A stretch of DNA of 64,000 bases from Pseudomonadales bacterium (GTDB lineage: Bacteria; Pseudomonadota; Gammaproteobacteria; Pseudomonadales; Azotimanducaceae). The position numbers and the translations under genes were made by a program. The notes beneath the pieces were generated by a model. The model made no database searches, was not told the DNA's origin, and saw only the letters and a list, made by a program, of their open reading frames with translations. Below are positions 13,749 through 31,779 of this stretch, one piece after another (within the stretch, counting starts at the first letter, position 1; each line of letters begins with the position of its first letter). The stretch is from assembly GCA_028285415.1 (NCBI GenBank), contig JANQPF010000013.1:1-64000 (forward strand), given 5' to 3'.

Positions 13749-14912
13749 TTACTGCCTGCGTAGCGCATCGACAATGGCCAGGCGCTTTGCGGTGATGGCA
13801 GGCAGCGCGCCGATGACAAGGCCGATGACGAGGCTCAAACCAACACCCGTGAGCGCCGCCTGCGGTGCAATCTCAAAACTGCCGAGCACTTCCTCGAGGC
13901 TCACCGATAATCCCGGCCCCAGCAGAAAAGCCATGCCCACGCCGATGGCGCCGCCAACCAGACAGAGCAGTACCGCCTCGCCGAGCACCAGCAGCGACAC
14001 GGTCATATCGGTAAAACCCAGCGTTTTCAAAACCGCAAGCTCGGGTATCCGCTCCCTGAGCGCCTGGGTCATGGTGTTTCCGGTCAGGAGCACAATGGTG
14101 AAAAACACTGCCGACATGATCATCGTCGTGATGAACCCCATGTCGCCGAGCTGACGCGCGAACTCACGGTTGCTCTCATCTTCGGTGGTCGTGCGGGTGG
14201 GATCCGAGGAGTTTTCGAACAGCGCGTCGATTTCCTGAGCAATTTCGTCCGCGCGGTCCGGCTCACTCACCCGCACCGTCCACTGGCTGACCGAATCGCC
14301 GCCGAATGCGACCGACTCGCGAAAGCGTTCATAGTGAAAGAGCATCACCGGGAAGCTCGATGACCTGCCGTTGTCCGAATAGGTACCGACAATCTCGAAC
14401 TCGAACGTGCGGCTGCCATCCTCTTTCTTGCTATAGATCTGACTGATGAGCGGCACCACGTCGCCGACCTGCCAGCCGAAGCGGTCGACGAGGCCGATGT
14501 CGATCACGGCGCTGCCTCGCTCCCGGGCAAATCGTTGCAACGCATCAGCCGGCTCGAGCATGAGCTCGGAGTAGACCTCGAAGTACTCCAGCGGCATGAC
14601 CGGAAACTGCGCAAAAAAGCTCTTTCCGTCCTGGTACATACCGCCAAACCAGGTGGTATGGGTGATCGCCTCGACGCCCTCGACGGCCATGATCTGCTGC
14701 TTCTGGCTGTAGGGCAGGTTGTCGATCTGCGAGTACTTGGCGCCGACGACGATGCGGTCGTTGCCGGCAATCTGCGGTCCGACAGCAAACGCATCGGCAA
14801 TAGACTGCAGCAGCATGAAGAGGAGAAACGCCACCATGACCGACAAGAGCGTCAGCGTCGTACGGGTGCGTTTGCGAAAGAGGTTAGCCCACATCAGGCT
14901 GAAGAGGCTCAC
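13749..14912 (-). CDS. ABC transporter permease, FtsX/MacB type (first)
   Basis: 387 residues, the same length and topology as the following permease. N-terminal helix (RTTLTLLSVMVAFLLFMLLQ), a periplasmic domain of about 230 residues with VIDIGLVDRFGWQVGDVVPL, and a three-helix FtsX domain (RERIPELAVLKTLGFTDMTV). Start is GTG at 14912, overlapping the ATPase stop by 4 bases. The two permeases most likely form a heterodimer over the ATPase, unlike MacB where ATPase and permease are one chain. Substrate unknown; export of a lipoprotein, peptide or lipid is consistent with the family. Confidence 0.9.
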   Translation of the reverse strand: MSLFSLMWANLFRKRTRTTLTLLSVMVAFLLFMLLQSIADAFAVGPQIAGNDRIVVGAKYSQIDNLPYSQKQQIMAVEGVEAITHTTWFGGMYQDGKSFFAQFPVMPLEYFEVYSELMLEPADALQRFARERGSAVIDIGLVDRFGWQVGDVVPLISQIYSKKEDGSRTFEFEIVGTYSDNGRSSSFPVMLFHYERFRESVAFGGDSVSQWTVRVSEPDRADEIAQEIDALFENSSDPTRTTTEDESNREFARQLGDMGFITTMIMSAVFFTIVLLTGNTMTQALRERIPELAVLKTLGFTDMTVSLLVLGEAVLLCLVGGAIGVGMAFLLGPGLSVSLEEVLGSFEIAPQAALTGVGLSLVIGLVIGALPAITAKRLAIVDALRRQ

Positions 14913-15601
14913 ACTTCTACTCCAGCGTCCGTCACGAGCTTGCCTTTGTCCATGTGCAGCACGTGCCGCGCGCGCTCCGCGGCGAGCGGATCGTGCGTCA
15001 CCATGATGATCGTCTTGCCGTACTCCTGGTTGAGCGTCTGCAGAAGCCCGAGGATTTCATCCGCCGTTTCCCGGTCGAGATCTCCAGTCGGTTCATCGCA
15101 GACCAGGAGGCTTGGGTCCGCAACCAGCGCGCGGGCAATCGCAACGCGCTGCTGCTGCCCGCCTGAAAGCTCCGACGGCTTGTGTTTGGCGCGATCCGCG
15201 AGACCAACAATCTCGAGCGCGGTCCCGGCGTTCTTTGCACGCTGCTTGCGCGAAAGTTTCGTCAGAAGCAGCGGCAGCTCGACGTTGCGCTGGGCATTCA
15301 GTACCGGCAGCAGGTTGTAGAACTGGAAGATGAAACCCACGTGCTCCGAGCGCCACTTCGCAAGCTCGCGGCCGTTCATGTCGTTGAGATCGACGCCGCC
15401 AACTTCAATTTCCCCACCCGTGGGATGATCCAGCCCGCCGATGAGATTGAGCAGCGTCGTTTTGCCCGACCCTGATGGACCCATCAGCGCAACGAAGTCT
15501 CCTTCCTCGATTTCCAGATTGATCCCTGTCAGCACCGGCACAACTTCTTTGCCCTTCGTGTACTGCTTTTCCAGGTTGCGACACGTTACCGCTGCGCTCA
15601 T
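14909..15601 (-). CDS. ABC transporter ATPase, LolD/MacB type
   Basis: 230 residues. Walker A GPSGSGKT at 41-48, Q-loop, signature LSGGQQQRVAIARAL, Walker B LLVCDEPTGDLD and the H-loop in MVTHD are complete, so it should hydrolyse ATP. The DRETADEILGLLQTLNQEYG stretch after Walker B is characteristic of the LolD/FtsE/MacB subgroup. It lies 24 bases after the adaptor gene and overlaps the first permease by 4 bases. Confidence 0.95.
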   Translation of the reverse strand: MSAAVTCRNLEKQYTKGKEVVPVLTGINLEIEEGDFVALMGPSGSGKTTLLNLIGGLDHPTGGEIEVGGVDLNDMNGRELAKWRSEHVGFIFQFYNLLPVLNAQRNVELPLLLTKLSRKQRAKNAGTALEIVGLADRAKHKPSELSGGQQQRVAIARALVADPSLLVCDEPTGDLDRETADEILGLLQTLNQEYGKTIIMVTHDPLAAERARHVLHMDKGKLVTDAGVEV

Positions 15602-15625
15602 CAGCGTTCTCCCTGTATCTGATCG

Positions 15626-16876
15626 TTAGTTGAGTGTGGTGACCGCCTGACCGTCAGCAAGCGTGTCCAGCACTTCCGCGGACAGCTGCGCGACGACAAG
15701 CTCACCGCCGGAAAGCCCCGTCAGCACGCGCACCCGCGCGCCATCACGCCCGCCTACCCGGACGGCGCGACGGTTCACGGCATCGTCTTCCACCACGTAG
15801 ACAAAAGCGCCTTCCGCATCCTCAGCAACCGCCGCCCCCGGCACCAGCACGCCCGGCTCGGGCTCAGCGGCTGCGGACGTTTCTTCTTCCTGCATGAAAG
15901 CCACCCGTACACCCATGTCGGGCAGCACGCGGCCATCGCGCTCCAGCAGACCGACACGCACGCGCACGGTCGCTTTGTTCCGATCCGCTGCGGGGATGAT
16001 GGCAATGACGCGAGCTGGATAGGCATCGTCGGGATAGGCGTTCAGCACCACCTGCACCGGCTGTTCCGGATAAACCCGATTGATGTAGGACTCGTTGACG
16101 TCCACCTCGATCTCGAGGGACGCCATGTCGACGATGGTGCAGATGCCGGTGCGGGTAAATCCGCCCCCAGCGGAGATGGGTGAGATCATCTCGCCGGGCT
16201 GCGCCGCCTTGGCAATGACAACCCCGGCAAACGGCGCGCGTATCTGCATGTCATCGAGGAGCTGCTTCTGCACGGCCATGCTGCGCTCAGCCACCGCAAT
16301 GTCGCGACGGGCACGCTCCAGGCGGGCAATCAAACCCTCCACCGAAAGCGCGTCGCGATCGAGGTCGGCCTGACTGGCAAGATTTCTGGTCGCAAGACCC
16401 TGCGTGCGCTCGAGATCGAGTTCCGCCTGCTTGAGATTGACCTCGAGCTCAGCGAGGCTGGCATCGGCCGATGCCAGCTGCGATCTGGCAAGCTCGTACT
16501 GCGCGCGCGGGATGGAATCGTCCAGCCGGGCCAGGAGCTGTCCTTCGGCGACGACAACGCCTTCTTCGATCAGTACCTCAATGACTTTGCCGGTGGTCTT
16601 GGCGCTGACGGTTGCCTGACGGCGGGCGACGACGTAACCCGTGGCATCGAGCACGCTGTCGCTGGGGGCGCTGACGCTGCTCCCCTGAGCCACCGCGGTC
16701 CTGACCGGCACGGGTGCTTCCGCGGAAGGCAGGTCGAAGGCCCACAAGGCAAATCCGACGCCGCCAGCGAGGGCAATGGTCACAAACCACTTGAGCGGTC
16801 GGCCTTCGCTCGATGCGGGCGCATCGCGATCGAGCTTCAATTCCTCCAGAAGCGCTTTCTTGTCCTGCTCTGCCAT
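15626..16876 (-). CDS. Periplasmic adaptor (membrane-fusion) protein, HlyD/MacA type
   Basis: 416 residues. A cytoplasmic N-terminus of about 28 residues is followed by one membrane helix (about 29-48). Then come the split lipoyl motif (ATVSAKTTGKVIEVLIEEG and later APFAGVVIAK), a coiled-coil hairpin with LASADASLAELEVNLKQAEL, a beta-barrel and a membrane-proximal domain. This is the architecture of RND/ABC adaptors that bridge an inner-membrane pump to an outer-membrane channel. First gene of the four-gene exporter operon; no TolC homologue is in the window, so a shared TolC is likely. Confidence 0.9.
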   Translation of the reverse strand: MAEQDKKALLEELKLDRDAPASSEGRPLKWFVTIALAGGVGFALWAFDLPSAEAPVPVRTAVAQGSSVSAPSDSVLDATGYVVARRQATVSAKTTGKVIEVLIEEGVVVAEGQLLARLDDSIPRAQYELARSQLASADASLAELEVNLKQAELDLERTQGLATRNLASQADLDRDALSVEGLIARLERARRDIAVAERSMAVQKQLLDDMQIRAPFAGVVIAKAAQPGEMISPISAGGGFTRTGICTIVDMASLEIEVDVNESYINRVYPEQPVQVVLNAYPDDAYPARVIAIIPAADRNKATVRVRVGLLERDGRVLPDMGVRVAFMQEEETSAAAEPEPGVLVPGAAVAEDAEGAFVYVVEDDAVNRRAVRVGGRDGARVRVLTGLSGGELVVAQLSAEVLDTLADGQAVTTLN

Positions 16877-16900
16877 GTGGCAACAACTCCTGAGTCACTC

Positions 16901-16927
16901 TCCCCGGACTCCCCGGACTCCCCGGAC
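16901..16927. repeat. Three perfect 9-bp tandem repeats upstream of the exporter operon
   Basis: TCCCCGGAC occurs three times in a row, followed by a degenerate copy (TTCCCGGAC) at about 16932-16940. It lies 25-50 bases upstream of the adaptor start, where it could affect expression through repeat-number change or act as a binding site. Too short for CRISPR. Confidence 0.7.
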
Positions 16928-17056
16928 GCTCTTCCCGGACTTCCCCCGATGTCCGGCAGGCCAGTCTAGCAGGGCACCGGACGTTCGTCTCATACGACGA
17001 CGAAGCGGTAACGTGCGCGCTAGAATGGTCATTCGAGGACTTCAAACGGAGAGGCT

Positions 17057-17398
17057 ATGAGCCTGCGACGCTACGTCACGGAAATGGGCATGGGGGTGGA
17101 CGTCCACGGTGGGGACTATACGAAGGCTGCGCAGCGGGCGGTCGCTGACGCCATCCGACACTCCAGCCTGAATTTCTTTCAAGCGTTGGATCTGCGTCCC
17201 AGCGACATGCAGATCACCGTGAAGATTGGTGCGGGTGATCCCGAAGCCGTGAACGTCGAGGCCGTCGCCGGTGAGCTGCCCTACGGCACGGTGCGGGTGG
17301 AGGCCGAACGCGGCGGCCTGGACGTGCCGAGCGAGAACGGTGAAGACCTCATGGTGATCGTCAACGCCGCGGTGCTGGTGTCTCTGCCGGCACGCTAG
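17057..17398 (+). CDS. Lin0512-type conserved protein
   Basis: 113 residues. The N-terminus TEMGMGVDVHGGDYTKAAQRAVADAIRHSSL closely follows the pattern I know for the Lin0512 family (about 110-120 residues, found in many bacteria and some fungi), whose function is not established. The remaining sequence is an alternating strand/helix pattern consistent with a small oligomeric alpha/beta protein. GGAGAG precedes the ATG. It stands alone, divergent from the exporter operon and convergent with the TetR gene. No signal peptide or membrane segment. Confidence 0.8.
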   Translation: MSLRRYVTEMGMGVDVHGGDYTKAAQRAVADAIRHSSLNFFQALDLRPSDMQITVKIGAGDPEAVNVEAVAGELPYGTVRVEAERGGLDVPSENGEDLMVIVNAAVLVSLPAR

Positions 17399-17426
17399 CC
17401 AAACACTGGCCGCTCGCCAGCACCGC

Positions 17427-18059
17427 TCATGCGCCGCGCTGGATCAGATGCGCAAGCCGCGTCGCACATGCCTCCAGATGCTCGAGGTGTGCGGCTTCGT
17501 CGACCATCTTGAGCTGCCCTTCCAGGCGCAGATGCGCATAGCCGTGAATGTGGCACCAGCCGAGCAGGATATCCGCTACGAGCGCGGCCGATTTTTCCCG
17601 GCTCATCTCGTGCGGTGTAAGCTCCGCTTCGCCGCGCTGGCGCAGGATGACGTTGGTGAGCTCAGTGAACGTTGCGAGCAGCGCATCCGGCGGGCAGCCC
17701 ATGTCGAACGGGATGAGGTCCGAACGGAACATGATGCGAAAGTGCTCGGGCCAGGTCTGCGCAAACTCCACGTAGGCTTTGGCGGTGGCGAACATCTCGG
17801 CATCGAGATCGCCCGCGACGGCCGCAAGCTCGGCCTGGAGCGTTGCGGCCAGGCGTGCAAAACCCCGCTCGGCCACCGCGCCGAGCAAACCACGCACGTC
17901 GTTGAAATGGTGTTTCGGCGCAGCGTGAGAGACACCGGCAATGCGGGCGCAGGCGCGCAGCGTAAAACCCTGCAGCCCTTCTGATTGCAACAGCTCGTCC
18001 GCCGCATCCAGTAACGCGTTACGCAGATCACCATGGTGGTAGCCGGGCCGGGTGCTCAT
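17427..18059 (-). CDS. TetR-family transcriptional regulator
   Basis: 210 residues from ATG 18059, which has GAGGTG just upstream; an ATG four codons earlier is less well placed. The N-terminal helix-turn-helix (HGDLRNALLDAADELLQSEG, then LRACARIAGVSHAAPKHHF) is typical of TetR proteins. The C-terminal half resembles the WHG/TetR_C-type ligand domain (EFAQTWPEHFRIMF). It is divergent from two membrane-protein genes, and an inverted repeat overlaps the probable promoter between them, so it likely represses itself and that pair. Confidence 0.9.
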   Translation of the reverse strand: MSTRPGYHHGDLRNALLDAADELLQSEGLQGFTLRACARIAGVSHAAPKHHFNDVRGLLGAVAERGFARLAATLQAELAAVAGDLDAEMFATAKAYVEFAQTWPEHFRIMFRSDLIPFDMGCPPDALLATFTELTNVILRQRGEAELTPHEMSREKSAALVADILLGWCHIHGYAHLRLEGQLKMVDEAAHLEHLEACATRLAHLIQRGA

Positions 18060-18096
18060 TTCACACCTCATTGATCACACACGCGTCATTGTACCC

Positions 18097-19982: not shown

Positions 19983-22900
19983 ATGCCAAAACAACCCAAG
20001 GTCACCGCACTGCCTGGCGCGCGTCGCACGGCGCCCGATGTCGTCAGCAGGAACCTGGTCAACAACACCGAGCTGACGCTCATGATGCCGGTCAAACCCG
20101 GTTTCATCCCAACCCGCGACACGGTGACCTACGCCACCCGCGCGCGCCTGACGATGGAAGCGTTCCATGGGTTCCGCCAGATTGCGCGCGAGGCTTCGAT
20201 GCAACATCCCTTCTCGGATGTCGTAGAGCGTATTGCGACGATCCAATCGTATCGACTGTCGCTATTGGAAAACGATACGAAGCTGCTCCTGGCGGTGTCC
20301 TTCGATCAGCCATGGGAGCCGTACATCCGGCGCATCTGGCGGGATACGGGCCCGTTTCTCGACGCCATCATCTGCAACTGTGTCGACTACGACCAGTACG
20401 CAAGTCCCAACGGTTTCGAGGCATTTTCCCGCTGGGTGCGGAAAACCCAGGTGCCTGCCGACTTTTTCTACATTGCCGACAACCTGACGGTCGACGATCG
20501 CAACTATCTCGATCTCATGGAGCAACGCCAGCGTGAGGGTCTTGCCAGCAACCGCGAGCTCGACATCGCGCGCATGCGCCTGCCCGACCTGGAAGACAAA
20601 GCAGAGGCCGAGCGCAATCGAGACCTGCCGGAAGCCATCGCCATGGGCCTACGAGCGCTGGGCGTACTTTATCGTCTCAACGATCTCTTCCCGAACGTCG
20701 AAGGCAGCAAAGACCACGAGTATTTCCACCATGCAACGCGCCGGCTCCTGCATGGTTTCGACTCGCAGCTGGTGCAGGGCCGCCAGCGCGAGGTGCTGTT
20801 CCGAGCCGAACTCGCCTGGTTCGAGCAGGAGATCAAACCGCCGCGGAAACCGAGAATCCGCAAGCGACCTGGAGCCGGGGTCATCCAGGGGGGCATCCTG
20901 GAACCCTACCGCGAAGTGTCCCACGGTGTGCTGCTGCTCATGCGGATTCGCAACCTCAGCGATGCCTGTCGCTTCATTGCCGAGCTGCCCGTCACCGCCG
21001 CCGGGCGCGAACCGGACAAACGCGCCCCGCGTTACAACATCGGTTTTACCTACAACGGTCTGGTACAGCTGCAGGCGGACCCGGCGGATCTTGCGGACCT
21101 GCCGCAGGAGTTCAAGGAAGGCATGGCGGCACGCGCCGGCATGCTCGGTGACGTACGCACCAACCATCCCGACAACTGGAACCTGCCGGACCGGCTTGGT
21201 GAGCGCGCCGACAACGTCGCCAAGGTTGAGATGTCGAGCGTCGACTTCGTGATACAGATCCGCTGCTCGCGCCGGGGTTCAGATTACGTCGGCGAATGGG
21301 GACCGGGGCACCCGCTCTACGCGACCGTGCAGCAGCTTGCACGCGATACCGGATGGTCCGGCGTGCAACTGCTTGCCATTCAAGCGATGGGCCATCAGCG
21401 CGACACGTTGAAGCGCACCGAGCACAAGATCCGCGAGCACTTCGGCTTCATCGACGGCATCAGCCAGCCCGACATCAAGGAAAACCCGGATCTCGAGAGC
21501 GACACCTGGAACAACGACGGCGCCGTCGGCGACGTGCTGCTCGGCCACGGCAACAGCTACGGCGACCCCGCCTATCCCGAGAACGCACGCGGCGGATTCC
21601 TCGACAACGGTTCTTTCCTCGTCATTCGCAAACTGAAGCAGGACGTTGCGGCGCTGAACAAACGCCTCCCCGGAGACCGCGCACAGCGGCGGCAGCGCCT
21701 CGCGAAAATGATGGGACGCCATCAGGACGGGCGGCCGCTGGTGCGTCATCGAAACGGTGACTACAACAACTTCGATTTTGACAAAGATCAGAACGGGGAC
21801 AAGTGCCCCATCCACTCGCACGTTCGCCGCATGAATCCTCGCGAGTTCAAGCCGGTGATCGGCGAAGATCGCGGTGGTCGGATTCGCGTGCCGCGCATCG
21901 TGCGCCGGGGAATGTCGTACGGTGAAACCGTCACCGACGACAATTTGGACGCCGATCGCGGCCTGGTGTTCATGGCTTACAACGCGAGCCTTGCGGAGCA
22001 GTTTGAGGTGCTCCAGCGCTGGCTCAGCGGCGGCAACTCCAGCGGGGGGTACAGCGGCCAGGCAGATCCGTTCATGGGGGTGCCCGAGTACGGTAAAAAG
22101 AGCACGTTCCGCTACGTGGATGGCGGCAAGCTGATCCATCAGCACATGCAGGACGAGAAAGACCCGCAACCCATCGTCAAGCTCGAGTGGGGTTTGTACC
22201 TTTTTGTCCCTTCGATGCGCACGCTCAAAAGCCTGACGAATCCCGTCGGCCGACCGAGTCTGGTCGAGCGAGGAGAGGCCATCATCAAAGATCTCGAGCG
22301 CCTGGCAGCGGAGCAGGCGCTCGGCTTCCCGCGCAAAGACCATGAGGTCTGCGTCTACCAGCGTTGGAAAGCCGTTCTCGAGGACGTGCAGCCTTCTCGC
22401 GAGGAAGATCTGGACGCCGTATGGGCGGCGGTGCGCGCGAAACACGGAGGCGTTCTGCGAACACCTTACGGCGTGCTGGTCGGCAGCGAGCGCCTGGTGC
22501 GCGAGGTATTTGCAGACGACGGCCGCAGGTTCTCCGTGCGCAAATACTGGTGGCGACTGCGCAAATCGTTTGGCGACATCTACCTCAGCATGGATCCACG
22601 CCCGAAGGCATTTCCCGGCAAAGATCCGTCTCAGCCGCCCAGGCAGCAGCCGTACCACAAGCAGGTCAAATACGGCGACTATCAACGGCGCGGCGAGGAG
22701 GTCAACGCGCTCCTTCACAGCTTCGGTGAGGCGTGGGCGTTCGACCCGGCATACCGCTATACGAGCGAAAAGTTTGGACCGGAATTTCCAGTCGGGGTGC
22801 AGGGCAACCTGCGCGTCCGGGACCTCGTGCACGTGGTTCTCGGCGAGCTTTCACGCGACTGGTTCGGCATACCGAATTCGAGGGAGATTCACGTTGGCGG

Positions 22901-23672
22901 CGAACCCACGGTCGATCGCCCGGACACCCTCCACTGTCCCTATCACTTCATCTCATCGTCCCGTTATGCGTTTTCACCCAATCCAGGTCCGGCGGCCGTA
23001 GACGAAGGTAAGGACCACGGATCGCGGCTGCAGGCGGCGACGCTGAAGTGGGTTCGACGGATCAAAGCTGATCCCAAGAAAAACCCCACTCCGATCGGCG
23101 GTGAGCTCTTCAGAATCATGGGTGACAAGCCGACACAGCTGGCAAGCGAGCTGATCGGAGCGATGCACGGTTTCCTGCCGTCTACGCTCGGCAACCTGTT
23201 GAAGGCCATCGACATGTGGTCTAACGACGGTAACCTGTGGCGAATTCAGGAAGACTACTTGAACGACGGCGGCGTTGATCCCCTGACGCGCGCCAACTCC
23301 GCCATTCGTGATCCGCTGCTGCGCGCGCTGCAATACCGGCCGGTACCCGATCAGCTGCACCGCATCGTGGTAGACCGTCACGTACAGCTCGGGCGCGAAG
23401 CGCTCGAACCCGGTGATACCGTCGTGATCGGCATCGGCTCGGCGTCAGCGGAGCTTCTCGAGAAAGGCCGCGCGGACGCAACGTGGGTGTTCGGGGGGGA
23501 CTACTACGGTAAAAACGCCGGGACCCACGGGTGTCCGGGGCAGAAGATTGCGATGGGTGTCATGCTGGGAATCACCGCGGCGCTCCTCGACGCCGGACAG
23601 CTGCGGGCGGAGGCGCCGCCGTTGATCCTGACGCTCATGTCCCGCGCGGAGGAGGTTGATCAGGAGGTGTGA
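19983..23672 (+). CDS. DyP-type peroxidase fused to a cytochrome P450-like domain
   Basis: 1229 residues; GGAGGA precedes the ATG. Residues 1-300 are an extra N-terminal region with a ferredoxin-like flavour (KLLLAVSFDQPWEPYIRRIW). About 305-745 is a full DyP peroxidase of the fungal-like subgroup: YNIGFTYNGLVQL, distal Asp491 in GFIDGISQP, proximal His613 in HSHVRRMNPR and distal Arg659 in DRGLVFMAYN. About 780-1229 resembles a cytochrome P450: entry region YGVLVGSERLVREVFADDGR, an I-helix-like GAMHGFLPST, and the haem-thiolate loop GTHGCPGQ (Cys1184). The K-helix ExxR is replaced by Arg1114-Ala-Leu-Gln1117. No signal peptide. A DyP could consume peroxide or feed an activated species to the P450 domain; that is inference. 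The 3' end overlaps the converging cyclase gene by 13 bases. Confidence 0.88.
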   Translation: MPKQPKVTALPGARRTAPDVVSRNLVNNTELTLMMPVKPGFIPTRDTVTYATRARLTMEAFHGFRQIAREASMQHPFSDVVERIATIQSYRLSLLENDTKLLLAVSFDQPWEPYIRRIWRDTGPFLDAIICNCVDYDQYASPNGFEAFSRWVRKTQVPADFFYIADNLTVDDRNYLDLMEQRQREGLASNRELDIARMRLPDLEDKAEAERNRDLPEAIAMGLRALGVLYRLNDLFPNVEGSKDHEYFHHATRRLLHGFDSQLVQGRQREVLFRAELAWFEQEIKPPRKPRIRKRPGAGVIQGGILEPYREVSHGVLLLMRIRNLSDACRFIAELPVTAAGREPDKRAPRYNIGFTYNGLVQLQADPADLADLPQEFKEGMAARAGMLGDVRTNHPDNWNLPDRLGERADNVAKVEMSSVDFVIQIRCSRRGSDYVGEWGPGHPLYATVQQLARDTGWSGVQLLAIQAMGHQRDTLKRTEHKIREHFGFIDGISQPDIKENPDLESDTWNNDGAVGDVLLGHGNSYGDPAYPENARGGFLDNGSFLVIRKLKQDVAALNKRLPGDRAQRRQRLAKMMGRHQDGRPLVRHRNGDYNNFDFDKDQNGDKCPIHSHVRRMNPREFKPVIGEDRGGRIRVPRIVRRGMSYGETVTDDNLDADRGLVFMAYNASLAEQFEVLQRWLSGGNSSGGYSGQADPFMGVPEYGKKSTFRYVDGGKLIHQHMQDEKDPQPIVKLEWGLYLFVPSMRTLKSLTNPVGRPSLVERGEAIIKDLERLAAEQALGFPRKDHEVCVYQRWKAVLEDVQPSREEDLDAVWAAVRAKHGGVLRTPYGVLVGSERLVREVFADDGRRFSVRKYWWRLRKSFGDIYLSMDPRPKAFPGKDPSQPPRQQPYHKQVKYGDYQRRGEEVNALLHSFGEAWAFDPAYRYTSEKFGPEFPVGVQGNLRVRDLVHVVLGELSRDWFGIPNSREIHVGGEPTVDRPDTLHCPYHFISSSRYAFSPNPGPAAVDEGKDHGSRLQAATLKWVRRIKADPKKNPTPIGGELFRIMGDKPTQLASELIGAMHGFLPSTLGNLLKAIDMWSNDGNLWRIQEDYLNDGGVDPLTRANSAIRDPLLRALQYRPVPDQLHRIVVDRHVQLGREALEPGDTVVIGIGSASAELLEKGRADATWVFGGDYYGKNAGTHGCPGQKIAMGVMLGITAALLDAGQLRAEAPPLILTLMSRAEEVDQEV

Positions 23673-26611
23673 ACGCCGTTGCCGGTTCTCGACAGGCCCA
23701 GACGTTGAAACGCCGCGGCCGCGCGCTCTGCGCGGACCGCAGCTTCCGCGCTATCACCTACCGCTGCGGCAAGCTCAGCGCCACACTCATCGTTCAAAGC
23801 AGCCTCGCGCAACGAGCTCCGCTGCAGGGCCGACTTCTCTGCCCGGGCCAGATAGTGCCCGGGCGGGTGCGTCCAGCCTTCCGCGGCTGAGGTCCTGGCG
23901 GCAGCGCGCGCGGCAATGGCAATACCAAAACCATCTCCCTGTCGCGCTCGGCGAAACGCGCGGGCAACATATTTACGCACGTCTTGCTCGCGGCCAAGCG
24001 CCGCGCATCCCTCCGCCAGCCACCCGTAGTTGAGCGACAGGAACTGACCCTGCCCCGAGTTTTCGAGCCAGGCCGTCGTTTCGATGAGCGCATCGACGTG
24101 CCGCGCATCACCAGACTGGCGCCATCGCGCATAGGCGATGACCACGCTGCCCATGCCGAAGAGATAGAAGTTAGTGAACCGTTCCGACAGGGTCCGGACC
24201 CGTTCCGCAGTCTCGATCGCCGTGCCCCAGTCCTCCCGCCAGAGCGCAACCCCCGCAATCTTCGCTTCGACGTTGATCGAGGTGGGATTGTTGTGCCACT
24301 GCGAGAGGTAACGTTTAGCCAGGGTGAACTGCTCGTCCGCGCCCGCGAAATCACCCTGATCGCCGAGCACCATCCCCAGGCAGCCGAGCGTATAAGCCAT
24401 CGCCAGCGATTCGCTGCTCGCAGGCTTGACCGAACCGTGTTTGCGCAACACTTTCTGCAAGAGCGCAATGGCAGCCACGTGATCGCAACTCGATGCCGTT
24501 GCCTGGCCGAGCGTTCTATCCGTCTCATCAACCAGCCGCGTGTGGCCACACTCCTGCGCGAGCGTGCGGGCTCGATAGTAGTAACGCAGCGCCTCACGGG
24601 GTAACCCGAGGCCATACTTCACCGTACCGAGCCAGTAGTTCACGTTGGCCTGGCCTTTCAGGTCGTGGCGCTCCTCGGCCAGGGTCATCATGCGGTGCAG
24701 CAGCGGCAGCTCTTCGTCGCTGGGATCGAGAATCGCGGCAATATTGAGACGCCGCGCGAGACTCATGATGTGACGGTAGTTGCCGGTGGAAACCTCCGCC
24801 GAATCCAGAAGCTCAATGGCAAGCCGAAACTGCGAACGCGCAAGGGCAAGCGCCGGCGCAGCCAGCGCGCGGTTGCCCGCCAGCTCGGCAAAGTGCACGG
24901 CCTCATTGCGCATGCCTGCTCCGGCAAAGTGGTACGCGAGCGCTTCGAGGTATTTACTTTCTCCCTCGCCTGAGTCGATGAGCGCCTGAGCAATGGTGCG
25001 GTGCAGGCGGCGCTTTTCGCGCAAGCCAATCAAGTCGTAGACAATTTCCCGGGTCAGCCCATGCTTGAAATGCCATTCCTCCTGCTGGCCGGGAAAGAGC
25101 AGGTCCAGCACCATCAATCCAGCCAGCGCCTCGACCCCCTCGAACTCGGCAACCTTCTGTAGTAACCATAGCGGCGCGGAGCTGCCGAAAACCGCGGCAA
25201 CTTCGACAATCTGTCTGGCCATCGGATCAAGCTGCAGACAGCGTGATTGGACCAGGCTGTACAGCCATTGAGGCGCGTGCTCTACCGGGCTGGGGGCATG
25301 ATCCAGACGATCCACGGACGAGGCCTGGCAAAGCTCTTCGAGGTACAGCGGATTGCCGCCGGCAAGCCCACAGATTTTGCCGCGAACAAACGGGTCCACG
25401 CTCGGCAGCAGCATCTGTATCGCTTCGTCCACTTCAACGTCGCTCAGCCCATCGAGCGGAATGATCTCCGCCTCGGCGAGCATGCTGGACTCCTGTTCAT
25501 CCAGATCGCGGCGGGCGAGCAGAATCATGATCGGCAGCTCTATCCGCGGCACCAGCTCGGCAATGAGGCGTTTCGACGCTTCGTCGGCCCACTGCCAGTC
25601 ATCGAGAAAAAGTACCAGCGGAGCCTGGCGGGCCAACGTCTCCATGCGTTTGAGCAGCATGCCACTCAACGCTGCCTGATCGTCGAAGCCTTCGACAGTC
25701 TCAGCACCCTGGTCACCCGTGAGTAAGTCCGGATGGTTGCTCAGCAGGTTGTGAAACGCGCCGAGCGGTCGAGCAATATGTTCCGCTTCGCAGTAGCCGC
25801 TGAGCACCATGACCTCGGCCATCGCGGGCTGATGCAGGAAGTGTTCTACCAGGCGCGACTTCCCCACGCCCGGGGAACCCACAAGGTAAACCGTCACCGA
25901 CACGCCTGAACGGACTGCCGCCCAACGCTGCTCGAGCAGCGCAAGTTCCGTATCCCGGCCGACAAAACTCAGACGGCTGCGCTTGCGCCGCGCCTGGTAG
26001 CGGTTGGCAACGGGATTCGCGCCGGACACCGGATAAGCGGGCACGCGCCCGGCAAAGCCCCTGAGTTCGAGACGGCGAATGGGACCGCAATCGAAGTACG
26101 CTTCCGATCCGCGAAGACTCTCGGCACAAACGAGAATCTCGTCTTCTGCCGCCGCCGCAGAGAGCCGCTGACAGAGGTTGGTGACTTCACCACTCAGCTG
26201 GTAGCTGCCGCCGTAAACGTCGCCCTCCTGCACGAACACGAGCCCGGCGTGGACGCCGCTGTGCAGACGTAGCCGTAGTCGCGATAACTCGGGTGTGTCG
26301 AACTGGAGGGAGCGCACCGCTGCGTGCAGATCAAGCGCCGCGTTGACGGCAAGACGGACGTCCTCTTCTCCCGCATTGGGAAAGCCGAACATGGAAAGCT
26401 GGCCGTCGCCGTGGACCTGCAGAAGCGTACCGCCGTGACGTGGGATGATCTCACGGCACAGCCGCCGGAGCTCCGCTAACAGCTCCGCGTATATTTCCGC
26501 TTCGAGATTCGCCGCGTACGCACTGGAATCAGACAGATCGGCATAAAACACCGCCACGTACCGCCGCTGTCGCGACACCTCTGACGGAACTGACGTTCCA
26601 CCGCTTTCCAC
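23660..26611 (-). CDS. Class III nucleotide cyclase / AAA ATPase / TPR protein
   Basis: 983 residues from a GTG with GGGAG close upstream. An N-terminal cyclase homology domain (about 15-195) keeps both metal aspartates (Asp25 in YADLSDSS, Asp69 in HGDG) and the transition-state Asn145 and Arg149, so it may be active. Next is an AAA-type domain with Walker A GSPGVGKS (245-252) and Walker B LFLDDWQWAD (Asp337-Asp338). The C-terminal half consists of TPR-like helical repeats. The arrangement matches cyclase-MalT/LuxR-like signalling ATPases without the DNA-binding domain. It lies 108 bases beyond the pilus operon on the same strand and could be co-expressed, but no shared role can be shown. Confidence 0.87.
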   Translation of the reverse strand: MESGGTSVPSEVSRQRRYVAVFYADLSDSSAYAANLEAEIYAELLAELRRLCREIIPRHGGTLLQVHGDGQLSMFGFPNAGEEDVRLAVNAALDLHAAVRSLQFDTPELSRLRLRLHSGVHAGLVFVQEGDVYGGSYQLSGEVTNLCQRLSAAAAEDEILVCAESLRGSEAYFDCGPIRRLELRGFAGRVPAYPVSGANPVANRYQARRKRSRLSFVGRDTELALLEQRWAAVRSGVSVTVYLVGSPGVGKSRLVEHFLHQPAMAEVMVLSGYCEAEHIARPLGAFHNLLSNHPDLLTGDQGAETVEGFDDQAALSGMLLKRMETLARQAPLVLFLDDWQWADEASKRLIAELVPRIELPIMILLARRDLDEQESSMLAEAEIIPLDGLSDVEVDEAIQMLLPSVDPFVRGKICGLAGGNPLYLEELCQASSVDRLDHAPSPVEHAPQWLYSLVQSRCLQLDPMARQIVEVAAVFGSSAPLWLLQKVAEFEGVEALAGLMVLDLLFPGQQEEWHFKHGLTREIVYDLIGLREKRRLHRTIAQALIDSGEGESKYLEALAYHFAGAGMRNEAVHFAELAGNRALAAPALALARSQFRLAIELLDSAEVSTGNYRHIMSLARRLNIAAILDPSDEELPLLHRMMTLAEERHDLKGQANVNYWLGTVKYGLGLPREALRYYYRARTLAQECGHTRLVDETDRTLGQATASSCDHVAAIALLQKVLRKHGSVKPASSESLAMAYTLGCLGMVLGDQGDFAGADEQFTLAKRYLSQWHNNPTSINVEAKIAGVALWREDWGTAIETAERVRTLSERFTNFYLFGMGSVVIAYARWRQSGDARHVDALIETTAWLENSGQGQFLSLNYGWLAEGCAALGREQDVRKYVARAFRRARQGDGFGIAIAARAAARTSAAEGWTHPPGHYLARAEKSALQRSSLREAALNDECGAELAAAVGDSAEAAVRAERAAAAFQRLGLSRTGNGVHTS

Positions 26612-26719: not shown

Positions 26720-27616
26720 TCAGCTGCGCTTTTCGCTCTTGCGGGCGTCCACCGCCGAGGCGAGGTCGGCAATGCGGCGCATGACGGTCGGGCGCAAGGA
26801 CGCGGCACCGTGTGGCGCGCTGATGAGGAAACGCTGATACGCGCGCATGGCATCTTCCAGGCGTCCCAGGCGTTCGAGCGAGTACGCGCGGTTCAGGTGC
26901 ACCGCTGCCGCTTCCGCATCAATCTGCTCGGCAACCGCAATGTACTGCAACGCGCCGATGTGGTTGTCGAGTTCCTGTTCGAGGACCGCAAGCTGTACCC
27001 AGATGTCGGCCACGGCCGAGTTTTTGGCGACGGCGGTATCCAGCATACGCCGGGCCTGGCCATGATTACCGATGGAGAGATACGCGGTGCCTGCCCAGAA
27101 CCACGGCTGCCAGTCCGGATGCTCCCGCTCTGCAAGAGGCTTCAGTAGCGGCGCAAGGGTCACGAGCGCTGCGCTCGAGGCATCGTCCAGAATATGCAGC
27201 CGCGCAAGCGTTAGACGGGCTTCACGATGCAGCGGAAACTCGTCGACGTAGGACTCGAGCTCGGCACGCATCACGGCAACGTCGTGGGTGGCCAGCAGAT
27301 TATCGCGCAGCTGATCAAACGCGCGCTCAGCCGCGGCGCTGAGCGTGCCGACCGGCACCCGGCCGACGCTGGGTTCATGCGTGCGGACGACCTCCGCACG
27401 GCGTGGATGACCGATGATCTTGGCTTCATCCGCCTTCGCCTGTGGCGCGGACTCGATGCCCTCAAAGAGCGTCTGCAGCGCTTCACGCGCCGCCGCCGCA
27501 TGCGCTTCGGATTGCGCGAGGTCTTCCTGATCAGCGGCAACCAGATCAGCCACCTCGGTGTCGGCAACCGACGCCGTACACATCAGCACGAGCAATAAGA
27601 CGGACAGTTTACGCAT
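26720..27616 (-). CDS. Exported TPR protein of the MSHA-type operon (MshN position)
   Basis: 298 residues from ATG 27616, where a signal peptide (to SVA, about residue 18) begins; an ATG seven codons earlier is less likely. After an acidic, Ala-rich linker come TPR-type repeats: EARLTLARLHILDDASSAAL, WFWAGTAYLSIGNHGQARRM, ADIWVQLAVLEQELDNHIGA and AVHLNRAYSLERLGRLEDAM. In Vibrio MSHA loci a TPR protein, MshN, follows the secretin gene, and this fits by position. It may stabilise secretin assembly in the periplasm. It starts almost at the stop of mshL (27621), overlapping none of it. Confidence 0.75.
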   Translation of the reverse strand: MRKLSVLLLVLMCTASVADTEVADLVAADQEDLAQSEAHAAAAREALQTLFEGIESAPQAKADEAKIIGHPRRAEVVRTHEPSVGRVPVGTLSAAAERAFDQLRDNLLATHDVAVMRAELESYVDEFPLHREARLTLARLHILDDASSAALVTLAPLLKPLAEREHPDWQPWFWAGTAYLSIGNHGQARRMLDTAVAKNSAVADIWVQLAVLEQELDNHIGALQYIAVAEQIDAEAAAVHLNRAYSLERLGRLEDAMRAYQRFLISAPHGAASLRPTVMRRIADLASAVDARKSEKRS

Positions 27617-27620
27617 GACG

Positions 27621-29210
27621 TTATCCCTCAGCCGCAACGATTGTCGGCGTCAATACCATGATGAGCTCCCTTCGAACCTTGTTCTCGTAGCGTCCACCGA
27701 ACGCTCGACTCAGCGGACCCAGGCGGCTCAGTCCCGGCAGGCCGCGTTCGGTGTAACTGTCCTGGGTCTGAATCAACCCCCCGAGCACAACGGTGTCGCC
27801 GCTCCTGGCACGCACGATGGAAGACACCTGCGCAACGTCGAGGTTGGGTGCTGAACTCTGAATGACACCCCCCGGACCTTCGACGACGCTGACGCTCGAC
27901 ACCCTTGTGACCACCGGCGATATGTCCATCATCACCCAGCCGTGCTCGCCAATCTGCGGCGTGAGCGACAGCACCACGCCCTCCGTCACAACCTGAGGAA
28001 TGTCGGTGGCGGTGGTGATCGATCCGGCGGACGTGGAGTCGGTGGACTGCTCGCGGCGGAAAAACGTTCGATCCGTTCCCACTTTGATGAGCGAGGTCTG
28101 GTTGTTCAACGTCCGCACGTGGGGCTGCGAGACGATCTCGACGTCACCCTGTTCCTCCAGGGCTTCGACCACCGCCGCGATTCTGACGTTGCCGTCGTTT
28201 TTGAGATTGAAGGCATCGAGACTGAGCACGGACGTCAACGGCGCAAGGCCACCGGCCGGGGAGCGAACGATGCCGTCCGTCGTGAACTCGACGTTCGTTC
28301 CCGAGTCGAGGGCGGCGCCGACACGGGCCCAGTTGACCCCAAGCGCCGAGGAGTCGTCCAGAACCACTTCCAGAATCCGCACCTCAATATCCACCTGCCG
28401 GTGGATGGCGCGGTTGATGTGGTTGACAAACTCCTGCACGGCCTCGACGTAGGCGTGCTGGTCCGTTACCTGAACGGTACCGGACAGCCGATTCACGACC
28501 ATCCTACCGCCGTCACTCAGGAGCGCTTCGAGCTGCTCTTCGAGCTCTGCCCAGAATTTGATTTCATCTTCCTGCTCTATCACGATGGAGCCGGACTCTT
28601 CACCCTCACCGCCGTCTCCACCGCCGGAACCGCTGCCGCCGGTATCCGAACTCGAGGACACCGTGGCGGTGGACGTCCCGGTTCCAGAACGCACCAGCCT
28701 CAGGTAATCGACGGTGAACTGTCTTGTTTCGGTAGAACGGACACGAATCACACCGTCTTTGATTTCCCAGTAGTAGTCGAGACTTGCCAGCATCAGTGAA
28801 AGGGCGCGATCGAGACTCATGTCCCGGAACTCGACGTCCAGCACGCCGGTGACGTCCTCGTCCGCCACGATGTTGAGATCATAAGCTCTGGCAAACAGGC
28901 GCAGACCGTCTCTGACCGCCATGTTGTTGATGACAAAGCTGTAGAGCTCCTCCGCTTCGGGTTCTGCTTCGAGGGATTCGGGTTGCGGAAACGCCATGCG
29001 CTCGCGGGCGGACAGCTGAAACGGCTCGAGCGCTGCCGGCGGCCAGGAGTCCGGCGAATGATAGCGTGGGAAATCACGCTCCTCGTCGGGTGCCTTGAAC
29101 TGCATCTGCGCACAGCCGGTGCTCAACACCATCAGCGCCAGAATTGCCGCGCGCAGAAGCGGCGTCATGCTGCGCGGGTTGGTCGATCCCTGACCGGAAA
29201 CTCTGCTCAT
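27621..29210 (-). CDS. mshL: MSHA-type secretin MshL
   Basis: 529 residues. Signal peptide with a lipobox ending LSTGC (Cys33), so an outer-membrane lipoprotein. N-domains: an STN-like stretch (MAVRDGLRLFARAYDLNIVADE) and the MshL-type region VDYLRLVRSGTGTSTATVSS, then a Gly/Ser/Glu-rich insert at about 210-230. The C-terminal secretin domain has VEIVSQPHVRTLNNQ, the VPxVTEG-like IPQVVTEGVVLSLTPQI and SGDTVVLGGLIQTQ. It forms the outer-membrane pore for the pilus. The ATG at 29210 overlaps the previous stop (ATGA); Met15 is an alternative start that shortens the signal peptide. Confidence 0.92.
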   Translation of the reverse strand: MSRVSGQGSTNPRSMTPLLRAAILALMVLSTGCAQMQFKAPDEERDFPRYHSPDSWPPAALEPFQLSARERMAFPQPESLEAEPEAEELYSFVINNMAVRDGLRLFARAYDLNIVADEDVTGVLDVEFRDMSLDRALSLMLASLDYYWEIKDGVIRVRSTETRQFTVDYLRLVRSGTGTSTATVSSSSDTGGSGSGGGDGGEGEESGSIVIEQEDEIKFWAELEEQLEALLSDGGRMVVNRLSGTVQVTDQHAYVEAVQEFVNHINRAIHRQVDIEVRILEVVLDDSSALGVNWARVGAALDSGTNVEFTTDGIVRSPAGGLAPLTSVLSLDAFNLKNDGNVRIAAVVEALEEQGDVEIVSQPHVRTLNNQTSLIKVGTDRTFFRREQSTDSTSAGSITTATDIPQVVTEGVVLSLTPQIGEHGWVMMDISPVVTRVSSVSVVEGPGGVIQSSAPNLDVAQVSSIVRARSGDTVVLGGLIQTQDSYTERGLPGLSRLGPLSRAFGGRYENKVRRELIMVLTPTIVAAEG

Positions 29211-29680
29211 GCTTCAGGCTCCAACCTGTATTCTTTTACGCCGCGCCTGAGCACTACGTGCTGCGCGCCGATTTCTACGACCTCGTATCTGTCGACGACG
29301 TCGCCCACGCGCACGAGGCGCTCGTCAATGACCGCCGCCTCCACGCCGGCGCCGACAAATAGCGCGCCCACCACCGGTAACGTTTCCGGCTCGGGCGCGC
29401 TTTCGCTGATGAGGCTGCCGCTGAACGGGTCGCGCTCCACGTCGTAGAGCCAGCCAATGCTCTCCCGACCTTCGATACTCGTTTCTGTTAGACCCACAAC
29501 ATTGGCGACGCTCGCAACGTCCGCATCAACGGTGTTACCAAAAAGATCCAGGGGCGGCACATCCGCAACGGTTACGGGATCATCGGATATCAGCGGCAGG
29601 ACCAGCGATATGCCCAGATAAACCGCCGCAAAAATGCCGAGCGCCGCGACGATCCATGGATTGTTCAGTAGATTTCTCAT
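29207..29680 (-). CDS. PilP/GspC-like pilus assembly protein (MshK position)
   Basis: 157 residues. One N-terminal membrane helix (VAALGIFAAVYLGISLVLPL) and a periplasmic part that ends in a GspC-HR/PilP-like beta domain: VGALFVGAGVEAAVIDERLVRVGDVVDRYEVVEIGAQHVVLRRGVKEYRL, read here as separate short strands. Such proteins link the inner-membrane PilM/N/O-like complex to the secretin. It overlaps its neighbours on both sides by 4 bases. Sequence is divergent, so the assignment rests mainly on topology and on its place between the PilO-like gene and mshL. Confidence 0.7.
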   Translation of the reverse strand: MRNLLNNPWIVAALGIFAAVYLGISLVLPLISDDPVTVADVPPLDLFGNTVDADVASVANVVGLTETSIEGRESIGWLYDVERDPFSGSLISESAPEPETLPVVGALFVGAGVEAAVIDERLVRVGDVVDRYEVVEIGAQHVVLRRGVKEYRLEPEA

Positions 29681-30393
29681 TCCATTGTTTCCTGGGCAGT
29701 GGCAGCCGCTGACTGCAGCAGCGTCAAATCGACGAAGCCGTAGCGGTCACGCACCCAAACCTGAGCATCGACGCTCAGGCTCAGCAGCTGTTCGCCGTCG
29801 CCGCGCGCCTGCGTCGATACCACGTCGATGTGCCAATGATCACGCAGCACCCTGCCGATCAGCTGCATGGCATTCATAAAGAGACTATCGGCAGTCTCAG
29901 CGGTAGCTTTAAATTCCAGCACCACCGGCACTTCCAGCACGTCCGGGACCGGGGACAAATGCGGTGCACGCGCCTTGTACGAAAACGTCAGACCGTAGCT
30001 GCCTGCAACCCTGGCGAGGCCCTCCGCCCAGGCAGCAAGCTCCGGAAATCCCTGGAACACGCGATCGTTTTCGGCTTCGATCGCGCGGCTCAAACTGTCC
30101 AGGTCGATCATCACCAGATCCGCCTCCAGCTTGGCAAGCTGGGTGTCGAGCGAATATTGCGTTGAGCGGAGCTCAACGAGCTCATGCAGGATTGACATGC
30201 GCTGCAGGTTCCAGGCAATCAGAAAACAACACGCTATGACCAGGCACATCGTGCCCGCGATCCTTTGCGGGGTGCGGAACCAGGCATCCACCATCATCTG
30301 CACATAGCGCTTGAGACCGGTGTGCGCCTCGATGGTCTCCTCTTTCTCATCCGTCCCGCTTTCGAGATCGGGCAGCTCGATATCGAGGCTCAC
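29677..30393 (-). CDS. PilO/MshJ-like inner-membrane assembly protein
   Basis: 238 residues from a GTG overlapping the previous stop (GTGA). About 45 cytoplasmic residues, one membrane helix (IAGTMCLVIACCFLIAWNLQ), a coiled-coil stretch (LHELVELRSTQYSLDTQLAK) and a periplasmic ferredoxin-like domain. This is the topology of PilO/GspM-like proteins that dimerise with a PilN/MshI-type partner on the periplasmic side. Sequence similarity is weak by eye; context supports the call. Confidence 0.7.
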   Translation of the reverse strand: MSLDIELPDLESGTDEKEETIEAHTGLKRYVQMMVDAWFRTPQRIAGTMCLVIACCFLIAWNLQRMSILHELVELRSTQYSLDTQLAKLEADLVMIDLDSLSRAIEAENDRVFQGFPELAAWAEGLARVAGSYGLTFSYKARAPHLSPVPDVLEVPVVLEFKATAETADSLFMNAMQLIGRVLRDHWHIDVVSTQARGDGEQLLSLSVDAQVWVRDRYGFVDLTLLQSAAATAQETME

Positions 30394-31778
30394 AGCATTT
30401 CTCCCGCAATCTGGAAGCCAAGCCGACCCGAATCACTCAGCTTGCCCTGCTCGAACTGTTCCATCCACGTTTCCGTGAAACTCTGCCGGACAGCGACGCG
30501 CCAGGGCGGCTGCTCCAGGTCCTGCTCGAAACGCGCAAGGATGCGCGCACCACGACGCATGTCGCCGGCAACGGTGCCGCTCAGCGCAACCCGCCAGGCG
30601 CCGCCGCTGCGTTGGATTTCTACTTCGGTAAGGGTGACCTCGGACGGTGTCAGCCGACTCAGATGCACCATCATCAGCGAAGGAAGATTGTGGCTGGTTG
30701 CGCGTAAACGGTTGAGATGATCCTGCTTGCTCTTCCCCGCCGACACCTTTTGCTCCACCTCGGCAATGAGCGTACGAACCTGATCGGAGCGCTGTTCGAT
30801 GGATCGCATCTGATCTGCACGATGGGCGACCAGCCCGCCGGTGAAGAGCGTCAAGAACCCTGCGACGGCAATTACGGCGGCGGTTGACCACGCGCCAACG
30901 CGCCGGAAAACCTCGCCGGTCATGTTCTTCTGCGCAAAAACTGATATGAAGTTGGCGGACAATTTACCGGACAGGCGCGTCGCCCATTGCGCCCAGAAGT
31001 ATGGGTCTTCCGCCTCGTCGTCGAAATACACCGGCATTTCCACGCCGGCTTCGAGCTCGGCGGCAAACTGCGGCGCAAGGTGCCCCATCATCCAAGCGGT
31101 ATCGACGCCGCGGCCGAGCTGCTGACGGGTGTAGCGCACGGTGCGGTTGATGTCCTGCACCAATCGTTCCACCGTTTCTGACGAGAGGCCGTAGTTCAGC
31201 TCGCGGACAAAGAGAGCCTCACCGTCGCCGAGCGCCAGGATGATCTCGGTCCGCTCGTTGAAGCATGCAACGACGACAATCAGCTGGTCATGAGCAATGT
31301 CCCTGGTAGGCAGGTAGTCCGACACAATTTCCGTCAGCGGCACATAGTTTTTTGGCGCGAGGCCAACGGCCGTGCACGCTGCTGTCGTAGATTTCACCAA
31401 CCGCTTGGGGAGGAGATGCAGAAGCACGCCTTCCTTGCCGTCCCGATGGGATACCTTGTGGTAGCACCAGGCGGCGTCTTCTTCGAACGACTTGTCTTGC
31501 TCCACACGACGCTGCAAGTACTTTTCGAGGTCGCGCCGCTTCATGGAGGGCACTTCCAGATAGTCGTGTGTGTGCAGATCGTGCTCGTGCACGACCGTCA
31601 CGTCACCTTTGATGCTGAGGTCAACGTGGTTCGACGCGGCATCCAGCGCACGCACCAGCTGGGCATGCGTCTCGACCCGTTCCGGCGCTTCCCACTGCGC
31701 GGCTATGTTGCCTTTGTGCAGGCGAGCGATGCGGAATTCGCCGTAGAGCCAGGATATGGAGTAACTGGTGCGTGCCAT
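30390..31778 (-). CDS. mshI: MshI/PilM-PilN-like pilus assembly protein
   Basis: 462 residues from ATG 31778, one base after the preceding stop; the open frame upstream is antisense-like and lacks similarity. The N-terminal 300 residues look like the actin-like PilM fold (LYGEFRIARLHKG, LPTRDIAHDQLIVVVACFNE, RELNYGLSSETVERLVQDIN). A single membrane helix follows at about 310-330 (AAVIAVAGFLTLFTGGLVAH), then a PilN-like periplasmic coiled coil. So PilM- and PilN-like parts are fused, as in MSHA MshI. It should sit at the inner membrane between the MshE/MshG motor and the PilO-like protein. Confidence 0.8.
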   Translation of the reverse strand: MARTSYSISWLYGEFRIARLHKGNIAAQWEAPERVETHAQLVRALDAASNHVDLSIKGDVTVVHEHDLHTHDYLEVPSMKRRDLEKYLQRRVEQDKSFEEDAAWCYHKVSHRDGKEGVLLHLLPKRLVKSTTAACTAVGLAPKNYVPLTEIVSDYLPTRDIAHDQLIVVVACFNERTEIILALGDGEALFVRELNYGLSSETVERLVQDINRTVRYTRQQLGRGVDTAWMMGHLAPQFAAELEAGVEMPVYFDDEAEDPYFWAQWATRLSGKLSANFISVFAQKNMTGEVFRRVGAWSTAAVIAVAGFLTLFTGGLVAHRADQMRSIEQRSDQVRTLIAEVEQKVSAGKSKQDHLNRLRATSHNLPSLMMVHLSRLTPSEVTLTEVEIQRSGGAWRVALSGTVAGDMRRGARILARFEQDLEQPPWRVAVRQSFTETWMEQFEQGKLSDSGRLGFQIAGEML

Positions 31779-31779
31779 G

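Follow-up and report, generated by a model that had tools for sequence, protein, structure and literature searches.

Peroxidase-P450 Fusions and the Locus Analyzed

The closest described systems are the fungal dioxygenase-P450 fusions, such as Ppo and the linoleate diol, allene oxide and epoxy alcohol synthases, whose P450 halves are termed self-sufficient (PMC13049297, PMC11719350). These halves, together with CYP74 and prostacyclin synthase, cleave a peroxide O–O bond (in part PMC13049297). Moreover, CYP157 of Streptomyces is a P450 without the consensus ExxR motif of the K-helix that keeps the Glu (EVLW, EQSLW), which shows that ExxR is not absolute (PMC3599690). The present analysis concerned a gene found in a window of 64,000 nucleotides, this being the whole stretch analyzed (positions 1 to 64,000 of contig JANQPF010000013.1, assembly GCA_028285415.1, from a Pseudomonadales bacterium), which encodes a DyP peroxidase fused to a P450-fold domain devoid of ExxR. 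Fungal peroxidase-P450 fusions and Streptomyces P450s without ExxR are already known; the DyP-P450 combination, together with its permuted twin and companions, is undescribed as far as searches of open-access titles and the beginnings of abstracts show, no DyP-P450 fusion having been found there.

A Recurrent Three-Part Reading Frame

The gene is a single intact open reading frame (ORF) with three parts, namely an N-terminal domain, here named WEPY after FDQPWEPYIR (residues 107-116), then a DyP peroxidase, and last a P450 fold. The original prediction, made from the letters of the DNA alone, had described just such a 1229-residue frame, with an extra N-terminal region and two haem-enzyme domains in one chain, and both folds were supported by sequence and by predicted structure. 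It had also expected a two-haem fusion of this kind to be rare in bacteria; the fusion recurs in many of them. When named genomes were scanned with the window protein alone, no relative was confirmed, and only a scan with a six-row alignment revealed the family, with 113 relatives confirmed by tblastn, of which the best 80 all carried the DyP-P450 frame, so that the fusion is not a one-off. These 80 named loci, one plasmid copy and the window are the basis of the locus counts given hereafter and form an alignment of 82 rows, 81 of them distinct.

The joined frame was seen again in 76 of the 81 other sequences, so that a frameshift or assembly artefact, the kind of error that the original prediction had named as a refutation, is rejected, and the joining of WEPY, DyP and P450 is not due to chance. 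Of the five exceptions, L015, L110 and L125 are truncated, whereas L062 and L082 lack the N-terminal domain in frame. The open frames of these last two may represent a natural variant or a sequencing error. Since no signal peptide was apparent when the sequence was judged by eye, the fusion protein is probably cytosolic, and it is best read as a cytosolic three-domain enzyme with two predicted haems. The GC content of the gene (62-64%, versus 60-64% in its surroundings) gives no sign either way of horizontal acquisition.

A Remodeled P450 Domain without ExxR

Taken as a single sequence, the C-terminal 456 residues had no significant match in Pfam, NCBIfam or PDB. A profile of six family members matched six P450s at 99.4% (E 1.6e-21, 327 columns), with a choice of templates that was not independent, because five of the six were weak matches of the same-family profile; the sixth was the P450 part of a permuted fusion. 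Searched against PDB sequences, a 63-row profile gave 138 matches at E ≤ 10, with a best E of 8e-5, and 60 of the 60 listed were P450s. The AlphaFold model of residues 752-1229 (pLDDT 92.6, pTM 0.93) likewise retrieved P450s in 50 of the 50 Foldseek matches listed, with moderate TM values of 0.49-0.60 and rmsd of 5.8-8.6. The model therefore supports the P450 fold that had been predicted for this region.

Genome G000, that of the host, gave 47 Pfam P450 matches, some of them pieces of one gene and none inside the fusion gene. The host is thus P450-rich and the fusion P450 escapes Pfam. Because the Pfam P450 model misses this part of the window protein, enzymes of this kind may go unnoticed when genomes are annotated.

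The alignment revealed which P450 hallmarks are kept and which are lost. Cys1184, the proposed haem ligand, and His1182 were kept in 81 of 81 rows, one further row stopping short of both, and the model places Cys1184 (domain residue 433) directly ahead of helix 436-452, while Arg1127, past the K-helix, was kept in 82/82. The haem-thiolate Cys had therefore been correctly picked in the original prediction, as had the replacement of ExxR by RALQ. ExxR was in register in none of the 82 rows, L078 and L130 carrying one out of register, and its absence is, as judged from the alignment, a trait of the whole DyP-P450 family. In the I-helix, G1063 was invariant (82/82), the column of the acid held Pro in 74 rows, Gly in 4 and Ala in 4, with Asp or Glu in 0/82, and the next column held Thr in 72/82, the Pro-Thr pair being present in 71/82. 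With respect to the FxxGx[HR]xCxG signature, HxC was kept in 81/81, and the Phe stood 11-22 residues ahead of the Cys (14-16 in 71 of the 81 rows measured) instead of the canonical 7. The distance from the place of ExxR to this Phe was 56 in the window, versus 64 to 69 in 11 of the 14 other P450s for which it was taken by pattern; the remaining three gave 50, 57 and 16, the last probably a mis-hit.

The ratio of nonsynonymous to synonymous substitution rates (dN/dS, NG86) was 0.10-0.41 for the P450 part in all 11 close pairs compared, 0.13-0.55 for the DyP and 0.07-0.32 for the N-terminal domain. Decay of the P450 part is disfavored because of these low ratios and of the Cys kept in 81/81, and the domain appears remodeled and under purifying selection. 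The original prediction had left three options, a degenerate P450, another salt bridge, or a peroxygenase/isomerase fed by the DyP part. The first of them is disfavored and the last is best supported, because the missing ExxR goes together with a lost I-helix acid and a lengthened Cys loop; that the DyP part would feed the P450 is what we infer.

The DyP and WEPY Domains

The DyP part reached 101.6 bits with NCBIfam TIGR01413 (cut-off 100.5) and 31.4 with Pfam Dyp_perox_C (cut-off 20), and Pfam DyP_N stayed below threshold on the fusion protein (17.3 versus a cut-off of 27.5). A search of PDB sequences gave 27 matches at E ≤ 10, of which the top 25 were DyP-type; the last two (E 0.48 and 1.5) were dismissed as chance. 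The AlphaFold model of residues 1-757 (pLDDT 88.2) found DyP-type peroxidases in 50 of the 50 Foldseek matches listed, the best being 8re3_A from Deinococcus radiodurans (E 5.6e-26). The distal Asp491 of the GxxDG motif was Asp in 79 of the 82 rows and Glu in 3, and the proximal His613 was kept in 82/82. Both residues had been named in the original prediction, whose choice of Arg659 did not stand. This residue was kept in only 78/82, whereas Arg641, 28 residues past His613 and within RRGMSYG, was kept in 82/82 and is most likely the distal Arg. We take the Arg of RRGMSYG-type motifs to play this role, presumably with a matching spacing in AauDyP. Catalytic residues, profiles and predicted fold together place the domain in the DyP superfamily.

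The WEPY domain is ferredoxin-like in the model, with a beta-alpha-beta-beta-alpha order followed by helices. It has no Pfam family, and no solved relative was found by sequence (best E 0.1). Of 398 genomes searched in the phylum, 13 contained it, each time fused to or adjoining a DyP gene, the DyP of G710 being judged by eye.

Distribution and Domain Orders

A genome search (n=97, including the window's own) found the fusion in three others, intact in G040 and G051 and broken by a contig end in G030; these correspond to the loci L068, L059 and L110, and L092 is likewise G540. Its presence is patchy. With the window's own genome counted, the fusion occurred in 2 of the 40 genomes searched in the genus, and the P450 part had strong matches in 2 of 390 genomes at the level of the order and in 2 of 398 at that of the phylum. 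The remaining order and phylum matches of this part were weak, those inspected being mostly ordinary P450s, with G703 a permuted fusion; L029 looks like an unrelated Clp-type ATPase. The hosts of the best 80 loci included Bradyrhizobium, Variovorax, Roseateles/Pelomonas, Xenophilus and Piscinibacter sakaiensis. The plasmid copy, in pDB-1 of Sphingopyxis sp. DBS4 (L015, 8941-14391), lacks the first part and starts directly after a Tn3 transposase gene.

Other arrangements of the same domains were also found. A permuted fusion with the order P450-WEPY-DyP was present in seven loci (L031, L131-L134, L145 and L147; frames of 1410-1643 codons), among them Novosphingobium aromaticivorans SARO_RS19865 (L145) and Sulfitobacter (L147). 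Adjacent split genes were found in four loci, in the order WEPY-DyP-P450 in L138 and L146 (Skermanella) and P450-WEPY-WEPY-DyP in L036 and L143, where the second WEPY was assigned by likeness. Among these 11 permuted and split P450s, ExxR was kept in all and the I-helix GxxPT in 8, and the P450 of L036 matched ordinary bacterial P450s (best E 4.2e-21). Divergent from the split operon of L036 lies a gene for a Tle1-like phospholipase-type hydrolase (6715-7740, minus strand; E 8.3e-74). Moreover, WEPY-DyP without P450 was found beside catalase-like genes in L135 (33.1 bits versus a Pfam cut-off of 25), L137 (below threshold) and L136 (by likeness alone, with no Pfam match), and beside a GMC oxidoreductase gene in L139 (by Pfam) and L140 (by likeness). 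A gene annotated as a hypothetical protein on a Rhizobium leguminosarum plasmid (L148, 5692-8622) holds fused WEPY and DyP motifs and no P450.

In the trees, the P450s (22 rows) and the DyPs (17 rows) of the DyP-P450 fusion each formed a single clade with support of 100/100. The permuted P450s formed one group (99/98) apart from these, and in the DyP tree the L148 gene grouped among the permuted fusions. The fusion P450s were joined to other P450s by long branches, and their placement in the P450 tree is unsettled. Because the DyP-P450 fusion forms its own clades and the permuted fusions fall elsewhere, we infer that the two probably arose separately.

Genomic Neighborhood and Companion Genes

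Table 1. Coordinates in the window of the fusion gene, its parts and its convergent neighbor.
Feature	Position	Strand	Basis or remark
DyP-P450 fusion gene	19983..23672	+	1229 aa, ATG start; relatives found
N-terminal WEPY domain (about residues 24-280)	20052..20822	+	secondary structure of model
DyP peroxidase domain (about residues 301-751; Asp491, His613, Arg641)	20883..22235	+	profiles, model, conservation
P450-fold domain without ExxR (residues 752-1229; Arg1127, His1182, Cys1184)	22236..23669	+	profiles, model
K-helix place of ExxR, RALQ (1114-1117)	23322..23333	+	alignment
Codon of Cys1184, proposed haem ligand	23532..23534	+	conserved 81/81
Convergent partner, 983 aa: class III cyclase, AAA_16 ATPase, TPR	23660..26611	-	overlaps fusion end by 13 bases

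The convergent partner of the fusion gene (Table 1) is its most constant neighbor. A cyclase-AAA-TPR gene was found by tblastn near the fusion in 73 of the 82 loci, downstream on the opposite strand in 68, and in 54/82 a cyclase ORF of more than 800 aa begins within 200 bases of the fusion stop. In five of the nine loci without a match (L073, L078, L092, L098 and L129), the sequence stops no more than 1.4 kb from the fusion. Among 65 neighbor cyclase ORFs, the metal Asp25 and Asp69 were each kept in 64, GK[ST] in 65 and the transition-state Asn in 55, and the usual ATP-type Lys was not seen in the window protein. A search with the cyclase gene in 94 genomes, the window's own included, gave the three fusion genomes as the best outside matches (E ≤ 5e-67), the next gene standing at 1.8e-30. 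All of neighbor clusters 2-4 and most of cluster 1 (127 of 156 ORFs) fell on the cyclase gene, the next cluster occurring in 19 loci; no other gene was as frequent among the recurrent clusters, in which redox partners were not searched by profile. The link between cyclase and fusion is a genomic association only.

A Crp/Fnr-like gene was found in the fetched flank of 21 of the 82 loci and not in that of the window. Similarly, the permuted L131-L134 have a cyclase-TPR gene upstream (L131 and L133 by Pfam, L132 and L134 by likeness) and a Crp-type gene downstream (L132 and L133 by Pfam, L131 and L134 by likeness). Upstream of L145 lies an annotated SARP-family regulator, with a similar-looking TPR protein in L147 and a similar-looking protein in L031. 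A link to phage defence was considered and rejected: P0001 had no PADLOC match, and the cyclase domain of P0002 matched Pycsar cyclases weakly, a likeness that is read as shared cyclase ancestry.

A lipase companion was found in part of the family. An SGNH hydrolase was fused in 15 of 80 loci by tblastn and in a 16th, cut by a contig end, by motif, and four loci had separate SGNH hydrolase genes on the same strand, 120-411 bases downstream of the fusion. The GGND and HP blocks were present in 15 of 15 uncut copies and GDSW, by pattern, in 12/16; Pfam Lipase_GDSL_2 stayed below threshold in L030 (27 versus 32.9). An SGNH match 5.3 kb upstream in L093 was taken as unrelated.

In the window, a run of MSHA-type pilus or type II secretion-like genes lies just past the cyclase gene (26720-35519, minus strand), holding a TPR protein, an MshL-like secretin, a GspF/PilC-like protein and a PilB/GspE-like ATPase. 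Upstream of the fusion are a MacB/FtsX-type ABC exporter, an HlyD-like adaptor and a TetR regulator (13749-18071, minus strand).

Proposed Function and Alternatives

The preferred reading, held with a little less than even confidence, is that of a peroxide-driven, perhaps lipid-directed two-haem enzyme, which would work like the fungal dioxygenase-P450 fusions with a peroxidase of another family. The P450 half would bypass the usual NAD(P)H/O2 monooxygenase cycle and split the O–O bond of an organic hydroperoxide or of H2O2, and the DyP half would make, use or deliver an oxidized intermediate within the same chain. Expression or activity might be tied to a cyclic-nucleotide circuit through the cyclase-ATPase-TPR gene and the Crp-type genes near some copies. 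Peroxide O–O cleavage is favored over O2 activation because the thiolate and the haem contacts are kept, the I-helix acid and ExxR are lost, and the Cys loop is reshaped. The substrate may be a lipid or fatty acid, which is proposed because part of the family has an SGNH acylhydrolase fused or adjoining.

Several observations weigh against this proposal. Its lipid part is the weaker one, because 60 of the 80 loci, and the window, show no lipase fused or just downstream, some of the contigs being short. The I-helix Thr is kept in 72/82, which would be compatible with O2 activation, and among the 11 permuted and split P450s three lack GxxPT and none lacks ExxR. DyPs are known as H2O2-consuming peroxidases, and no DyP acting on fatty-acid hydroperoxides was found in open-access titles and the beginnings of abstracts. 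In addition, L066, L077, L118 and L126 have full flanks but no cyclase match by tblastn, and the threshold used (E ≤ 1e-6) may count unrelated cyclases.

Rather unlikely, and yet the alternative that survives best, is an H2O2-dependent peroxygenase in which the P450 would hydroxylate with H2O2 while the DyP performs one-electron oxidation or clears excess peroxide. The loss of the I-helix acid, the peroxide chemistry natural to DyP and the catalase-like or GMC oxidoreductase genes adjoining P450-free WEPY-DyP pairs (L135-L137, L139 and L140) would all suit it. However, CYP152 peroxygenases carry Arg-Pro at the I-helix acid and Thr places, and the fusion has Pro-Thr in 71/82 rows and no Arg at either place. 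Improbable, too, is a P450 domain without catalysis that would serve to bind haem or a ligand, as a gas or lipid sensor or as a regulator of the DyP, and work with the cyclase. This would explain the loss of both ExxR and the I-helix acid next to a frequent cyclase neighbor, but the domain is under purifying selection as the DyP is and keeps its Cys in 81/81, although a sensor would also be expected under selection, and the permuted and split P450s keep ExxR in 11/11. A conventional monooxygenase fed by unlinked host ferredoxins, quite improbable in turn, could draw on the Thr kept in 72/82 and on the many P450s of the host (47 Pfam matches); it is opposed by the acid column, which holds Asp or Glu in 0/82, by the reshaped Cys loop and by the neighbor clusters, none as frequent as the cyclase, redox partners not having been searched by profile. 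The least probable of all is that the DyP oxidizes aromatic or lignin-type compounds with the P450 as an accessory, since, even though DyPs of this type oxidize aromatics and the hosts include Bradyrhizobium and Variovorax, with the permuted fusion in N. aromaticivorans, the protein has no apparent signal peptide and is probably cytosolic, and the attached enzyme, where present, is of the acylhydrolase type.

Comparison with Known Systems

The family is of interest in several ways. To P450 biochemists it offers a sizeable natural set of proteins that lack ExxR and have a remodeled Cys loop, in which the need for the salt-bridge motif can be tested. It adds to the fungal cyclooxygenase-like enzymes a peroxidase-P450 fusion whose peroxidase is a DyP and which exists in two domain orders. 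In view of the lipase and cyclase companions, the idea that bacteria synthesize lipid signals in this way can be put to the test. In its boldest and, as a whole, unlikely form, this idea would make the system an independently assembled analogue of the cyclooxygenase/prostacyclin-synthase cascade, in which a lipase, a DyP-based fatty-acid oxygenase and a hydroperoxide-isomerizing P450 on a single polypeptide would yield an oxidized-lipid signal read or controlled by the cyclic-nucleotide neighbor, assembled at least twice in two domain orders.

The C/D-type DyP peroxidases (8re3, 4g2c, 5c2i and 7anv) share the fold and the catalytic Asp, His and Arg, and the DyP described here differs from them in being fused to two further domains. 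CYP74 has an altered Cys loop, with an insert. CYP74 and prostacyclin synthase were not found as close relatives in any search made here, in which the CYP74 and CYP8A profiles were not run. Their unusual I-helix (PMC13049297) and their independence of a redox partner are a likeness in kind only, and their I-helix Asn sits in another place. CYP157 and the fusion P450 both lack a consensus ExxR, but CYP157 keeps the Glu, whereas in the fusion both places vary (PMC3599690 for CYP157); the fusion P450 also differs in its longer Cys loop and in sitting within a fusion.

The nearest parallel remains that of the fungal Ppo-type enzymes, in which, as in the DyP-P450 fusion, a single chain carries a peroxidase-type haem domain and, after it, a P450, with two haems, predicted in the present case (PMC13049297 and PMC11719350). 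The peroxidase half of the fungal fusions belongs to the peroxidase-cyclooxygenase superfamily, whereas here the domain is a DyP by profile and model and no animal-type (cyclooxygenase-like) haem peroxidase, which bears out the original suggestion of a Ppo-like parallel with a different peroxidase family. The DyP-P450 fusion further differs in its additional WEPY domain, in the lipase that sometimes accompanies it and in the loss of ExxR. Recurring as it does mostly near a signaling gene and at times with a lipase attached, it may play in bacteria the part of those fungal enzymes by which oxidized-lipid signals are made.

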